Shown one piece after another: positions 608-5,523 of a stretch of 37,462 bases of DNA (the first letter of the stretch is position 1; each line of letters begins with the position of its first letter). The position numbers were made by a program, and so were the translations under genes. The DNA comes from a virus. Location of the stretch: the IMG/VR virus record IMGVR_UViG_3300045994_000730, positions 1 through 37,462 of that record; one strand, given 5' to 3'. A model generated the notes under the pieces. The model ran no database searches. It was given only the letters and a program-made list of their open reading frames with translations, and was not told the DNA's origin.

Positions 608-1099
608 TTACTTTTGCTTTGCAAGCCTATTTAATATGCTTTGTGAACGCGCCTTGGCAGCTTGACTAGCCTGCCGCTCTTCTTCCTCAATCTCTTCATA
701 AGCCATTGCAATAGCCGTAGCCATTTGCTTGTCCGGTAACCGGTTATTACCATGGTGAAGCTTAACCATCTCATTCACCTCGGTAATTGCCTGGAGCAGC
801 CGATCATGATCAACGGGGCAGACGTATTCTTGCTCTGCCTCTTCCTCAATGACGGGTGCTGACTGTACCACAGATAGTACACCTAAGTCTGTAACCAGCA
901 TTGGGCCTATGCCTTTCAAAAGCCAAGTGGCATTAATACCAGCATCTATGAAACGTATGATGGCATCTGCTCCAGGCTTACTAATATCCATCTCATACTT
1001 TTGTAACGTACTAAATGGAGTTCCTAATAAGGAGCTAGCCTCATCCTGCTTAAGTTTTTTAGACTCCCTCCATTGTTTTAATCTGCCTCCGATACTCAT
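608..1099 (-). CDS. Phage repressor, XRE-type HTH (Mu c analogue)
   Basis: This 163-residue protein has an N-terminal helix-turn-helix at about residues 4-60 (RLKQWRESKKLKQDEASSLL, then STLQKYEMDISKPG), followed by INATWLLKGIGPM, typical of phage CI-like repressors. The C-terminal part is acidic and then basic, without an obvious peptidase domain. It is the leftmost large gene and is transcribed leftward, the position and direction of Mu c. Its start codon lies inside the inverted repeat at 1097-1129, which suggests autoregulation. No good Shine-Dalgarno precedes the ATG. Role inferred: maintains lysogeny by repressing the early operon that begins with ner. Confidence 0.85.
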   Translation of the reverse strand: MSIGGRLKQWRESKKLKQDEASSLLGTPFSTLQKYEMDISKPGADAIIRFIDAGINATWLLKGIGPMLVTDLGVLSVVQSAPVIEEEAEQEYVCPVDHDRLLQAITEVNEMVKLHHGNNRLPDKQMATAIAMAYEEIEEEERQASQAAKARSQSILNRLAKQK

Positions 1100-1318: not shown

Positions 1319-1657
1319 ATGAACCAAAAAGCCTCAAAAAAGGCCGAATCAGACGCAGAAATCCCTGCGCCTGATTGGCACCCAGCTGACATTAAATCAG
1401 CCTTAAATAAAGTCGGAAAAACCCTGGCGATGGTCGCAGAGGATCATAACTTAAACAGCGGAAGCTCACTATCAAAAGCATTAACGTCCAGCTCTCCGGT
1501 TGCGGAAAGACGCATAGCTGATGCGCTGGGATTACACCCAAAAGTGATTTGGCCCAGTCGCTATGAAGCAGACGGCACACACAAGCCGCAAGGGTCACAT
1601 GCATTACGGCGCAAAGTACCGACGCAAGCGCCGGTTATCAAGGAAGAGCGGGCATGA
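1319..1657 (+). CDS. ner: Ner/Nlp-family DNA-binding regulator
   Basis: The 112-residue protein contains the Ner signature at about residues 19-82: DWHPADIKSALNKVGKTLAM near the start, the HTH around SSLSKAL, and RRIADALGLHPKVIWPSRY at the end. In Mu, Ner is the first early gene product and represses both the repressor promoter and the early promoter during lytic growth. The ATG at 1319 follows TTGGAG. The stop overlaps the start of the next gene (ATGA), so it heads a translationally coupled operon. The C-terminal tail is basic and Pro-rich. Confidence 0.93.
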   Translation: MNQKASKKAESDAEIPAPDWHPADIKSALNKVGKTLAMVAEDHNLNSGSSLSKALTSSSPVAERRIADALGLHPKVIWPSRYEADGTHKPQGSHALRRKVPTQAPVIKEERA

Positions 1658-2148
1658 GCCAGGAAGATACTAGCAATAAAGGCTTTCCGCCTAATTTAAT
1701 TGAGAAGCTGGTAAAGCAAAGGCTTGATTGGATGGCAGCACGAGAAAAAGGAGTAATAAAACAGGTAAATGAATTCTGGCAGACTGTTAATCCGCCAGAA
1801 GGACCTTTGACTGCTACCTATGAAGAATTTGTTAAGCAGGTCATTAATAAAGCGATTGAGGGTGAAAAGCTAATTTTAGCGGTCAATATCCGAAGAAGAC
1901 GCATCAGGAAATTCATCAGCGTATTGCTGCTGGTGATAGGCGTTCTGGGCTTCGTTTTGCTTAAAAGCAACCTTAATGGCAGCCATTATTTGCTCTGGAT
2001 CATTGACTACCTCTATCCCTTTTATACAGGTTTTGCAGCCGTCTTTGCTTTCCATTCGTTTAGAGAGCCATGTTGTAAATGCAATGATGGCGAGGTCATG
2101 GCCAAAACTAACCAAATACATGGTGACATCGGCAAGATCAATACTTAG
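1654..2148 (+). CDS. Hypothetical early protein with a hydrophobic segment
   Basis: This 164-residue ORF overlaps the end of ner by ATGA and has AAGGAAGAG upstream, so translation is likely. Residues 1-75 look like a genuine soluble helical region (LIEKLVKQRLDWMAAREKG). Residues about 86-101 form a hydrophobic stretch (FISVLLLVIGVLGFVLL), and a second lies near 110-130. The 3' half overlaps, antisense, the leftward ORF 1876-2259, so at least part of one frame may be under little constraint. No family is recognised. Alternative: only the N-terminal part is ancestral and the C-terminus is read-through into the antisense region. Confidence 0.5.
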   Translation: MSQEDTSNKGFPPNLIEKLVKQRLDWMAAREKGVIKQVNEFWQTVNPPEGPLTATYEEFVKQVINKAIEGEKLILAVNIRRRRIRKFISVLLLVIGVLGFVLLKSNLNGSHYLLWIIDYLYPFYTGFAAVFAFHSFREPCCKCNDGEVMAKTNQIHGDIGKINT

Positions 2149-2259
2149 TCCGGCAGCGGCTATTGGCGCGATGGTTACGTCTTCCGGCAGGTTAGCCAGG
2201 TCATCAAATAGATCAGTATCGTTAGTCGTTATAAGTACTGTGTTTTCTTTAAAAATCAT
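1876..2259 (-). CDS. Leftward hypothetical protein between ner and the transposase gene
   Basis: A 127-residue ORF on the opposite strand to the early operon. The ATG at 2259 follows AGGTGA with good spacing. Composition looks like a real soluble acidic protein: NDTDLFDDLANLPEDVTIAP, then an amphipathic central part with TMYLVSFGHDL, a pair of cysteines in DGCKTCIKG, and a polar C-terminus (HHQQQYADEFPDASSSD-like). No family is recognised. A reverse-oriented gene inside the early operon is typical of an accessory (moron) gene expressed from the prophage. Its 3' part overlaps the rightward ORF 1654-2148 for 273 nt, so one of the two may be spurious. Confidence 0.55.
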   Translation of the reverse strand: MIFKENTVLITTNDTDLFDDLANLPEDVTIAPIAAAGLSIDLADVTMYLVSFGHDLAIIAFTTWLSKRMESKDGCKTCIKGIEVVNDPEQIMAAIKVAFKQNEAQNAYHQQQYADEFPDASSSDIDR

Positions 2260-2345: not shown

Positions 2346-4724
2346 ATGACTGACATTAACCGGCCTGCTGATACGCAGGAAATCGCCGCCGTTATTGGAA
2401 AAAGCAAGGATACCGTTGAGCGAATGGCTAAAAAACCACCTGGATGGAAATTTACCGAAGGGGATGGAGCAGGCCGCCATAAAAAACGCCTGTATGCACT
2501 GAAAGAGCTGCCCAAAGCCATACGTGACGCCCTTATCACTTACCGGATTAACCAAGGAGTTAACCATGAGCAACCCCATAGAGACATTACCGGCAGACCA
2601 GCGGTCGCCAATGATAAAAGCAAAGCAATTACCCAAGCTGCCAGCCATGGCGGAGCAGTTGAGCGAAAACCAGATCGACGAGTTGCTGGACATGGCGACT
2701 TACCTGACGATGTTTCAAACTACCTTCATGATGAAGGCGGCAACTCAGCCAAACGCCAGCCTGCCCTTGTGGGGAAAAAAGAGCAAGGAAGAGTTTGCGA
2801 AAAACTCCCCGCTGCCACTTTATTATGCCCCGTCGATTCTGGAAGAGCTGGAGTTACGGGAGTTCCTGCAACTCAAGGAGCTGGAAGCAAAAAAGCTGAT
2901 AAGGCTGATACAGCAGGGCGTAAAGATGGAGTGCTGGCAGTTAACCGCAAGAGGCCATCTGGTGGTGATTTGGTACCTGCGCTTCGCCATGGATTATCAA
3001 GCGATACTGGACCAGTATCCGATGATAGACAGCGATTAAAGAACGAATCCCGGCATACGATTTTAATGTTTGTTGAGGGTTATCCGGGTTCATTAAAGGC
3101 TGCCTGCGAGTATTTGACCCAGGGCTATGCTGCCAGTGAGTTATCGCCTGATTTGGTCTATGCGATAGATCATTGCAATGACAAGTTGAATGATAATCGG
3201 AAGGGCAAGATTTCAGATAGCACTGTCGGCAAATGGAAGAACCTAAAGAAGTCGGCTGGGCACTGTTTACCTAGTGTCACGCGGGTTAAAACGCGCTGGC
3301 AGGATGTGTCTTGGCTGCCGTTGTTTCTGGCTTGCTATCGGAAGCCGCAAAAACCGAAGCAGACTGAGGCCTACACAGAGTTTAAGAAAGATTGGGCGTT
3401 GCATCGGTTCAATCCTGAAGAGCTGCCAAGTCTATCGACGATTAACCGGCTGTTGAAGATGATGCCGCCTATTATCCTGGAAACCGGGCGTAGTACAGGA
3501 TCAGAAATGGCCGCTCTTAAATCCTTTACCCGGCGGAACTGGTCGGATATGTCCAGCAATGAGGTCTGGGTAGGCGATGGGCATAGCTTTAAAGCCAAGG
3601 TTCAGCACCCTGAAACTGGGCATGCCTTTATTCCTGAGGTAACAGTGATTATCGATGCAGCAAGCCGGTTTATTGTCGGTTGGGCCTTTAGTCTGTCAGA
3701 GAATCAGATTGCCGTGTCCGAATCGCTTGGACAGGGGATGTTAAAGCACGGCAAGCCGTTAATTTACTATTCCGATAACGGTTCGGGACAAACCGCCAAA
3801 ACCATAGACTGCCTGGCAGGCGGAATGCTTGCCAGAATGGGTATTCACCATGAAACCGGAAGACCTGGCAATCCGCAAGGGCGCGGCTTAATTGAAGGGC
3901 TTTGGGATATTACCGCGATTGCAGCGGCCAAGACCTTTGCAACCTTTCAGGGCACCGGCATGGATGGTGATACCTTGCGCAAGCGTACTAATTTGATTAA
4001 TAGCGCCAAGCGCAAAGGGGAGGTGCCCGCTTTTGTGCCGAAATGGAAAGAGTTTATGACCTGTTGCGAGGAGTATTTCGACACCTATAACCACGAGCAT
4101 AAGCACAGCAAATTAGGCGGAAAAACACCGGCAGAAGTGTATTTTTCCAACTTTGACCCAACTTGGTCGTGCCCCTTGACCGAGGACGAAGCGCTTAACC
4201 TGTATCGGCCTTTTGTAGAGCGGGAGACAAGACGGGGCGAGGTACTTTGGATCAACAACATCTATTTCAATCAAAAATTGGTGGAGTTGCCTAGAAAGAC
4301 CAAGGTGCGCGTGGCTTATGATATGCACCATGCCGATCATGTCTGGATTAGTGATCTACAGGGCCGGTTTATCTGCATTGCCATCTGGAATGGCAATCAG
4401 GTGGACGGGTTTGCTAAATCAAAGCGGGAAAAGATTAAGGATGCGCGGATTGATGGCATGGTTAAGCGCGGACAGGATCAGATAGACAAGGCTTATGCCG
4501 AGCAGGGTTACATTATTGACGGTGAACTATTAGAACGGGTGTTCGTGGAGCCCGTCGAGCGGGAAGCGCCATTAATTCAACTGTTTGAAGAAGCCAAAGA
4601 ACAGGATGAGCCCTTAAAACAGATTGTTATCGACGGAGGATTTAACCGGCAGCAACCGGAAGAAAAAACCATGACCTGGCAAGAACAAGCCGAGTGGTTT
4701 GAGTCAAAGAATAACGGCGGTTAA
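2346..4724 (+). CDS. DDE transposase, MuA-like
   Basis: This 792-residue protein catalyses strand transfer of the phage ends. Residues about 1-65 form the Mu-type winged-helix DNA-binding domain (TQEIAAVIGKSKDTVERMAK, KKRLYALKELPKAIRDAL). Residues about 225-400 correspond to the end-binding and pre-catalytic part. The RNase-H-like core has candidate catalytic residues D411 (VWVGDGHS), D477 (YYSDNGSG) and E517 (GNPQGRGLIEGLW). A Mu C-terminal domain follows. Compared with MuA, about 150 extra residues rich in Gly, Ala, Lys, Arg and Asp lie between the first DNA-binding domain and the end-binding region. That extra stretch coincides with an out-of-frame ORF at 2566-3039. The start at 2346 follows AGGGATAG. 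Confidence 0.94.
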   Translation: MTDINRPADTQEIAAVIGKSKDTVERMAKKPPGWKFTEGDGAGRHKKRLYALKELPKAIRDALITYRINQGVNHEQPHRDITGRPAVANDKSKAITQAASHGGAVERKPDRRVAGHGDLPDDVSNYLHDEGGNSAKRQPALVGKKEQGRVCEKLPAATLLCPVDSGRAGVTGVPATQGAGSKKADKADTAGRKDGVLAVNRKRPSGGDLVPALRHGLSSDTGPVSDDRQRLKNESRHTILMFVEGYPGSLKAACEYLTQGYAASELSPDLVYAIDHCNDKLNDNRKGKISDSTVGKWKNLKKSAGHCLPSVTRVKTRWQDVSWLPLFLACYRKPQKPKQTEAYTEFKKDWALHRFNPEELPSLSTINRLLKMMPPIILETGRSTGSEMAALKSFTRRNWSDMSSNEVWVGDGHSFKAKVQHPETGHAFIPEVTVIIDAASRFIVGWAFSLSENQIAVSESLGQGMLKHGKPLIYYSDNGSGQTAKTIDCLAGGMLARMGIHHETGRPGNPQGRGLIEGLWDITAIAAAKTFATFQGTGMDGDTLRKRTNLINSAKRKGEVPAFVPKWKEFMTCCEEYFDTYNHEHKHSKLGGKTPAEVYFSNFDPTWSCPLTEDEALNLYRPFVERETRRGEVLWINNIYFNQKLVELPRKTKVRVAYDMHHADHVWISDLQGRFICIAIWNGNQVDGFAKSKREKIKDARIDGMVKRGQDQIDKAYAEQGYIIDGELLERVFVEPVEREAPLIQLFEEAKEQDEPLKQIVIDGGFNRQQPEEKTMTWQEQAEWFESKNNGG
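2566..3039 (+). CDS. Nested out-of-frame gene inside the transposase gene
   Basis: A 157-residue ORF in the +1 frame relative to the transposase. Its ATG at 2566 is preceded by a near-perfect Shine-Dalgarno AAGGAG (2554-2559) at 6-nt spacing. The frame favours CTG, GAG, CAG and AAG codons and gives a normal helical protein (AEQLSENQIDELLDMATYLT, ELELREFLQLKELEAKKLIR). The transposase frame here encodes low-complexity hydrophilic sequence. The pattern suggests the nested frame carries the main protein constraint and the transposase frame is an open linker. No family is recognised. Alternative: an inserted gene that happened to leave the transposase frame open. Confidence 0.62.
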   Translation: MSNPIETLPADQRSPMIKAKQLPKLPAMAEQLSENQIDELLDMATYLTMFQTTFMMKAATQPNASLPLWGKKSKEEFAKNSPLPLYYAPSILEELELREFLQLKELEAKKLIRLIQQGVKMECWQLTARGHLVVIWYLRFAMDYQAILDQYPMIDSD

Positions 4725-4791
4725 TACCGCCATTACCCAACCATCTTGCTGTAACAAGATGATTTTTCCCAATGAAATGAGGATTGTACCG

Positions 4792-5523
4792 ATGAAACTG
4801 CATTATGTAAAAGCCAGTAACTACCATTTATTTTTAGTCATGCTGGCAACGGTTGAGGCCAATGCGCCCAAAGAGGGCCGTATTATCTATGTGCATAGCG
4901 GGCCGGGTGAGGGTAAATCGCGCACTTTGGATTATATCGGCGCTGACCGTAACGCTATCTATATAGAAGGGATGCCGGGGATGACGCTGTCTTATCTGAA
5001 AGAGCTGGTCAGTTATGAACTGGGTTGCACCGGGGGCACCATGTATCAGCAGCAATCCGCTATCGCCAAGGTATTTGGCGAGCGGGTGCCGATGGTGATT
5101 TTTGACGAGGCGCAACACGGCCTGGCTAAAAACGCTGAGTGTATCGAGTATTTACGCCGCTTATGTGAAAAGTCTGGCAGCGTGTTAGTGCTGGTCAGTC
5201 ATAGCAGCGAAAAACACCGCTTCGGCGAACACAAGTTAGCCCATATCGCTACCCGGATCAGCGCGGTGGTGGAGTTTAAACCGGCAACAATGGAGGATTG
5301 CGCGTTGTATTTACAGGAGTTGTGTGAAGTTACGGTGGAGGCTGGCAATGTGCATCAGGCCTTGACTCAGTCCGGTGGGCGTTATCGGTTACTGTCCTGC
5401 GCTTGTCGCTCACTGGAAAAAATCGCCGCCAAGCTGGGCAAGACCCATTTAACCGAAGCCGATACCAAAGGCATGATGCTCTGCGAGGATGCAATGAAGG
5501 CGTTACGTAAAGGATCCAAATAA
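4792..5523 (+). CDS. MuB-like AAA+ ATPase, transposition target activator
   Basis: A 243-residue protein with Walker A GPGEGKS at residues 37-43 and Walker B VIFDEAQH with D105 and E106. It lies directly after the transposase, as Mu B does. MuB binds ATP and DNA, selects the target site and stimulates the transposase. It is shorter than MuB (312 residues) and lacks the N-terminal HTH extension, so it resembles the compact B proteins of other transposable phages. The start at 4792 was chosen because GAGGA lies 8 nt upstream; the frame is open further upstream (TTG 4699), but that would overlap the transposase. Confidence 0.88.
   Translation: MKLHYVKASNYHLFLVMLATVEANAPKEGRIIYVHSGPGEGKSRTLDYIGADRNAIYIEGMPGMTLSYLKELVSYELGCTGGTMYQQQSAIAKVFGERVPMVIFDEAQHGLAKNAECIEYLRRLCEKSGSVLVLVSHSSEKHRFGEHKLAHIATRISAVVEFKPATMEDCALYLQELCEVTVEAGNVHQALTQSGGRYRLLSCACRSLEKIAAKLGKTHLTEADTKGMMLCEDAMKALRKGSK

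Follow-up and report, generated by a model that had tools for sequence, protein, structure and literature searches.

The window, by which we mean the entire 37,462-nucleotide stretch of viral DNA analyzed here, carries a Mu-like DDE transposase gene (A) on the plus strand at positions 2346 to 4724 (792 amino acids). Its identity is given by matches in Pfam and PHROGs, including the DDE integrase core (rve), the Mu C-terminal domain (Mu-transpos_C), and phrog_310, which covers residues 226 to 786 (E = 4e-118), along with a downstream gene for a DNA transposition protein B-like AAA ATPase (4699 to 5523, plus strand; AAA_22; phrog_296, E = 1.4e-21). On the other side lie genes for a C repressor-like helix-turn-helix protein (608 to 1099, minus strand; Pfam HTH_3; phrog_8 and phrog_4) and a Ner-like regulator, the first early gene (1319 to 1657, plus strand; HTH_35, E = 3.8e-24; phrog_769). 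Because these three genes flank the transposase, we regard the locus as an ordinary Mu-like early region. Two further protein-like open reading frames (ORFs) lie between ner and the transposase gene and have an antisense overlap of approximately 270 bp, one at 1654 to 2148 (plus strand) with a likely membrane segment and one at 1876 to 2259 (minus strand); neither had a PHROG match of note.

Inside the transposase gene, positions 2566 to 3039 of the same strand hold a second, nested gene of 157 codons in the +1 frame relative to the transposase. Its ATG is preceded at a distance of 6 nt by the Shine-Dalgarno sequence AAGGAG (2554 to 2559). The original prediction had called this ORF and its well-spaced AAGGAG, and its coordinates were exact. 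A GTG at 2524 would give a longer reading of 171 amino acids; the conserved start with a Shine-Dalgarno sequence is the ATG at 2566. Throughout the nested gene the transposase frame stays open, and the residues that it encodes there are rich in G, R, A, S, P, and D; the original prediction had described this stretch as free of stops, low in complexity, and hydrophilic.

The nested gene coincides with a gap in the predicted transposase structure. In a model of modest confidence (mean pLDDT 53), the protein is folded on either side of a linker. Specifically, residues 1 to 70 (2346 to 2555) form an N-terminal helix-turn-helix domain with a pLDDT of about 67 to 81 that is conserved among relatives and takes the position of domain Ialpha in MuA, where the N-terminal helix-turn-helix is the enhancer-binding domain. 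Residues 71 to 224 (2556 to 3017), encoded in the transposase frame by the DNA of the nested gene, are modeled essentially without secondary structure and with a pLDDT below 50. The end-binding, catalytic, and C-terminal part (3021 to 4724) resumes around the nested stop codon, with the phrog_310 match starting at residue 226 and helices at residue 227. The nested gene spans transposase residues 74 to 231 and thus agrees with the unstructured region to within a few residues.

Taken alone, the openness of the nested frame in the window sequence is moderately unlikely and only suggestive. When transposase codons were shuffled synonymously, the nested frame stayed open in 0.7% of cases, and an equally long same-strand, out-of-frame open stretch arose somewhere in the transposase gene in 1.4% of cases. 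What is decisive for the nested gene is conservation across relatives rather than openness in a single sequence.

Co-occurrence, translation start, and selection in the overlap

Relatives were drawn from virus contigs, from one metagenome-assembled genome (MAG) of the Rhodocyclaceae, and from genomes of one further order. We identified 15 transposases with a long linker, meaning a long stretch from the N-terminal helix-turn-helix to the end-binding domain: those of the window, L002, L005 (near-copy L006), L009, L024, L025, L001, L054/L035, L055/L036, L053/L037, L059/L039, L057/L041, L052, L056, and L076. These cover two deep catalytic subfamilies, and in every one of them (15/15) the corresponding site holds a +1 ORF, starting 72 to 91 codons into the transposase, compared to 0/15 of the related transposases with a short linker (Fisher P = 6e-9, uncorrected for shared ancestry). 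The proposed co-occurrence of linker and nested ORF was thus found, and no long-linker homolog with a broken nested frame was seen. Across the overlap at 13 loci, the transposase frame contained 0 stops while the third frame contained 9 to 16, and both frames were open across the whole overlap in further relatives beyond that set.

The nested proteins are homologous to one another in 14 of the 15 cases, as judged by leave-one-out profiles (E = 7e-37 to 6e-6). For the remaining one, L056, the same procedure detected no homology to other nested proteins, so we counted it for co-occurrence only. This ORF (G910 C129) begins at transposase codon 91, encodes 158 amino acids with a basic isoelectric point of 10.2, and has an AGGA start signal; perhaps it is a different gene that occupies the same slot.

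The original prediction also held that the transposase has about 150 extra residues here, and this proved correct. When nested length is subtracted from the position of the catalytic Asp, 14 transposases with a nested gene give values of 242 to 275; in most transposases that lack the gene, that residue lies at about 261 to 299. Since this difference is nearly constant, the extra transposase residues are essentially equivalent to the nested gene and nothing more.

The nested gene appears to have its own translation start. An ATG is present at this point in every relative, and 14 of 15 nested starts have a Shine-Dalgarno match of at least 4 nt at proper spacing (L059 has a poor one), compared to 161 of 749 out-of-frame control ATGs from the same genes (binomial P = 5e-9). 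Alternatively, the nested frame could be an alternative C-terminus reached by +1 ribosomal frameshifting, yielding a fusion of helix-turn-helix and winged-helix domains. The nested frame directly follows the helix-turn-helix domain of the transposase, and Shine-Dalgarno-like sequences can stimulate ribosomal frameshifting. Yet the spacing to the ATG, itself found in every relative, fits initiation, and we noted no conserved slippery site by eye. Furthermore, in L005, L009, and L025 the nested frame is closed by a stop only 3 to 5 codons upstream of the ATG, which leaves almost no room for a frameshift fusion. We consider frameshifting very unlikely, and independent initiation at the nested start is the best reading of these sequences.

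Patterns of substitution indicate on which of the two frames selection chiefly acts. Within the overlap, the wobble position of the transposase codon is position 2 of the nested codon, and the wobble position of the nested codon is position 1 of the transposase codon. Among seven pairs of relatives, nested position 3 differed most (0.32 to 0.59) and nested position 2, the transposase wobble, differed least (0.15 to 0.39), with the exception of L001-L037, where nested position 1 was marginally below position 2 (0.19 versus 0.20). Downstream of the overlap the usual pattern returned, with transposase wobble most variable (0.45 to 0.60). Because the codon-position pattern is inverted in the overlap and normal downstream, we conclude that selection acts mainly on the nested protein, with the transposase frame being maintained as an open one. 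This is the purifying selection on the nested frame that had been proposed as a check, and the opposite case, in which such selection is limited to the transposase frame, was not seen. In addition, nested identity was 0.35 to 0.71, versus 0.14 to 0.28 in shuffles that preserve the transposase protein. Synonymous shuffles of nested codons introduced a mean of 1.6 to 3.7 stops into the transposase frame, where 0 were observed (13 loci). Identity in the transposase frame was somewhat above the expectation from synonymous shuffles, which ignore shared ancestry, and this may reflect mild constraint on the linker or shared ancestry that is not yet saturated.

These results bear on whether the nested ORF is a gene at all. 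It could be a by-product, an open frame driven by the composition of a flexible linker, and in single sequences the chance that the nested stretch is open ranges from 0.000 to 0.13. Such a by-product would not be expected to show homology among nested proteins, an inverted codon-position pattern, a conserved Shine-Dalgarno sequence, and perfect co-occurrence with the linker, and we regard it as extremely improbable. A chance ORF was rejected on the basis of the codon-position pattern and the shuffle test of identity.

Predicted fold and movement of the nested gene

Structure prediction suggests that the nested gene encodes a MarR-like winged-helix protein. The model, of moderate confidence (pLDDT 71), has the order helix, helix, helix, strand, strand, and long helix, plus one extra short helix. 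It resembles MarR-, RosR-, and TubR-like winged helices with Foldseek probabilities of up to 1.00 (best E = 7.5e-3) and VIA Z scores of up to 9.8 over approximately 90 residues (MexR, MepR, MarR, RosR, and TubR), and a conserved W-x-L-T-x-x-G of the nested proteins maps to the second strand of the predicted wing. At the sequence level, the nested protein had no match in Pfam, PHROGs, or PDB sequences. Among eight nested proteins there was no match to a MarR-type Pfam family at E values up to 1, and one weak match to Arg_repressor (Pfam; E = 0.071). Given that no sequence family matches and that most members are neutral to acidic (isoelectric points of 4.4 to 7.9, except for L056), DNA binding by the predicted winged helix is only plausible. 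Taken together, we conclude that positions 2566 to 3039 very probably are a genuine +1-frame gene within the transposase linker, from which a small winged-helix protein would be made on the early mRNA from its own Shine-Dalgarno sequence and ATG.

A tblastn search with four different members of the nested family returned no match in 50,697 phage records (INPHARED), and profile searches of 399, 369, and 250 genomes from the order, class, and family of the Rhodocyclaceae MAG returned only that MAG. The family was found in 6 of 311 genomes of one further order. This order is probably Methylococcales, because the search was centered on a genome carrying PF02461, the particulate methane/ammonia monooxygenase family. 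On this partial sampling, the nested family looks concentrated in one probably methanotrophic order and in environmental virus contigs.

Some relatives of the nested gene point to its movement. One stand-alone relative was found in a prophage of G775 (L046, 4931 to 5308, the same as L040, 1480 to 1857), where it sits between ner and the transposase gene (leave-one-out E = 6.6e-10); the L046 transposase carries a nested copy as well. Moreover, trees of the nested protein and of the catalytic domain are discordant. Nested L025 and L052 group with L001 and L053 (93/95), whose catalytic domain belongs to the other deep clade. In a second conflict, L024 and L054 form a pair in the nested tree (100/99), and the catalytic domain of L054 pairs with L025 (95/100). 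Finally, L058 and L059 are 92.7% identical in the DNA of their catalytic part, and only L059 has the nested gene. Because the trees disagree and these two loci differ in presence, the nested gene behaves as a module that is gained, lost, and exchanged between transposase subfamilies.

Other comparisons touch on the same part of the transposase. L058 and L059 form a near-natural pair of empty and filled sites, and their end-binding domains differ. The transposases of the window (2346 to 4724) and L001 (1829 to 4207) are nearly identical in the N-terminal helix-turn-helix, with only about 28% identity in the best segment of the whole protein; the sequences suggest a module swap in which the parts were joined at, or close to, the nested gene. 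In L002, a separate 152-amino-acid gene (2838 to 3296) lies directly upstream of the transposase. The N-terminal half of its product resembles the transposase helix-turn-helix domain, with a weak match to phrog_310 (E = 0.006), and the gene would thus encode a free-standing Ialpha-like protein.

How the overlap came about can be viewed in two ways. Overprinting usually refers to a new ORF that is born inside an older one, and the original prediction described the locus as overprinting. The part of that claim that stands is the overlap of two coding frames. The direction is another matter: the nested protein looks ordinary and is possibly the older module, with the linker accommodating it. We reverse the direction on account of the winged-helix fold, the stand-alone L040, and the exchange between transposases. 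Under de novo overprinting, a long linker would have come first and the winged-helix gene would have evolved from its +1 frame. All homologs found so far but one lie inside transposases, and there was no stand-alone copy near short-linker transposases in the flanks that we examined, both of which would fit such a birth. Against it, the nested gene accounts for nearly all of the additional linker length, the predicted fold is a standard one, a stand-alone relative exists, and the linker frame is of low complexity, with openness as its one clear constraint. We consider de novo birth rather unlikely. The modular traffic favors a gene that was first inserted and then read through in a second frame, although stand-alone relatives are too few for certainty.

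Our fuller interpretation is that a movable gene for a winged-helix regulator may have been inserted whole into the transposase, read through as a disordered linker, and passed between subfamilies, so that each transposase mRNA would also yield a regulator of transposition or lysogeny. We hold this combination of steps tentatively, as a reading that is quite possible. If true, the linker was created by gene insertion, the reverse of the usual route of overprinting.

Proposed role and comparison with known overlapping genes

In the working model, the gene would have entered as a module at the insertion-permissive linker between Ialpha and Ibeta, in keeping with the stand-alone relative between ner and A in one prophage. 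The corresponding MuA linker (amino acids 65 to 89) accepts insertions, and several of them increase activity (PMC3362531). Since the linker tolerates extra unstructured residues, the transposase frame would need only to remain open, and the transposase would gain a long flexible tether that joins its N-terminal helix-turn-helix to its end-binding domain. Ribosomes would initiate independently at two places on the early transcript, the ATG of the transposase and that of the nested gene, so that the small winged-helix protein would be made in step with the transposase. From its winged-helix fold and the ner-adjacent relative, we expect a regulatory role. The nested protein may be an early regulator that binds phage DNA or the transposase and tunes early transcription or transposition, which would agree with the suggestion in the original prediction that it could modulate transposition.

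The main functional alternative to early regulation is that the nested protein serves in counter-defense or exclusion and simply makes use of a high-value early location. The nested proteins are mostly neutral to acidic, which is atypical of strong DNA binders, Mu-like early regions do contain accessory genes, and overlapping exclusion genes are reported near ner in phage Fc02 (PMC9936078). The winged-helix fold and the stand-alone relative next to ner point instead to regulation, and we view a role in counter-defense or exclusion as unlikely.

Our findings have several implications. Fully nested same-strand genes are seldom proven in bacteria and phages, and claims are often based on one genome. 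The case described here draws on numerous diverged relatives, on related transposases that lack the gene for comparison, and on a clear signature of selection, and there is a structural reason for why the overlap is tolerated, namely a linker predicted to be disordered at a position where MuA accepts insertions. It offers a testable example in which one gene would have entered another and been accommodated through a second reading frame, it suggests a new layer of transposition control, and it demonstrates that a compact phage can conceal a gene family missing from the 50,697 phage records that we searched. Overlapping phage genes are of a known kind, while a gene inside a Mu-like transposase was not described in the literature searched, in which subscription journals were sparsely covered and bioRxiv preprints were not included.

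Among overprinted phage genes, E within D of phiX174 and Rz1 within Rz of lambda are well known. Like these, the nested gene is a complete small gene in another frame with its own start. Unlike these, its host frame is a disordered linker that is present only with the nested gene, and the gene itself looks inserted, exchangeable, and of a known fold type. Regulators are also made from transposase genes in Tn5 (Inh), IS1 (InsA), and IS3 (OrfA). Those systems likewise involve a second product of a transposase gene, which for the nested protein plausibly regulates transposition; however, their products are read at least partly in the frame of the transposase, whereas the nested product is wholly out of frame and unrelated in sequence. 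An in-frame inhibitor made from an internal start, of the Tn5 Inh type, was ruled out here, as the nested product is in the +1 frame.

Rpn genes-within-genes resemble our case in that a product of a gene within a gene is translated separately, but RpnS represents the full-length protein's own C-terminal domain, while the nested product is out of frame (PMC10327210). The overlapping +1 genes olg1 and olg2 of the Mu-like phage Fc02 also belong to a regulatory region, yet they are placed elsewhere, upstream of the repressor and opposite ner and gene 10, outside the transposase (PMC9936078). A parallel in position is the Ialpha-Ibeta linker of MuA, which occupies the same place in the protein as the nested gene and for which no gene was reported (PMC3362531).
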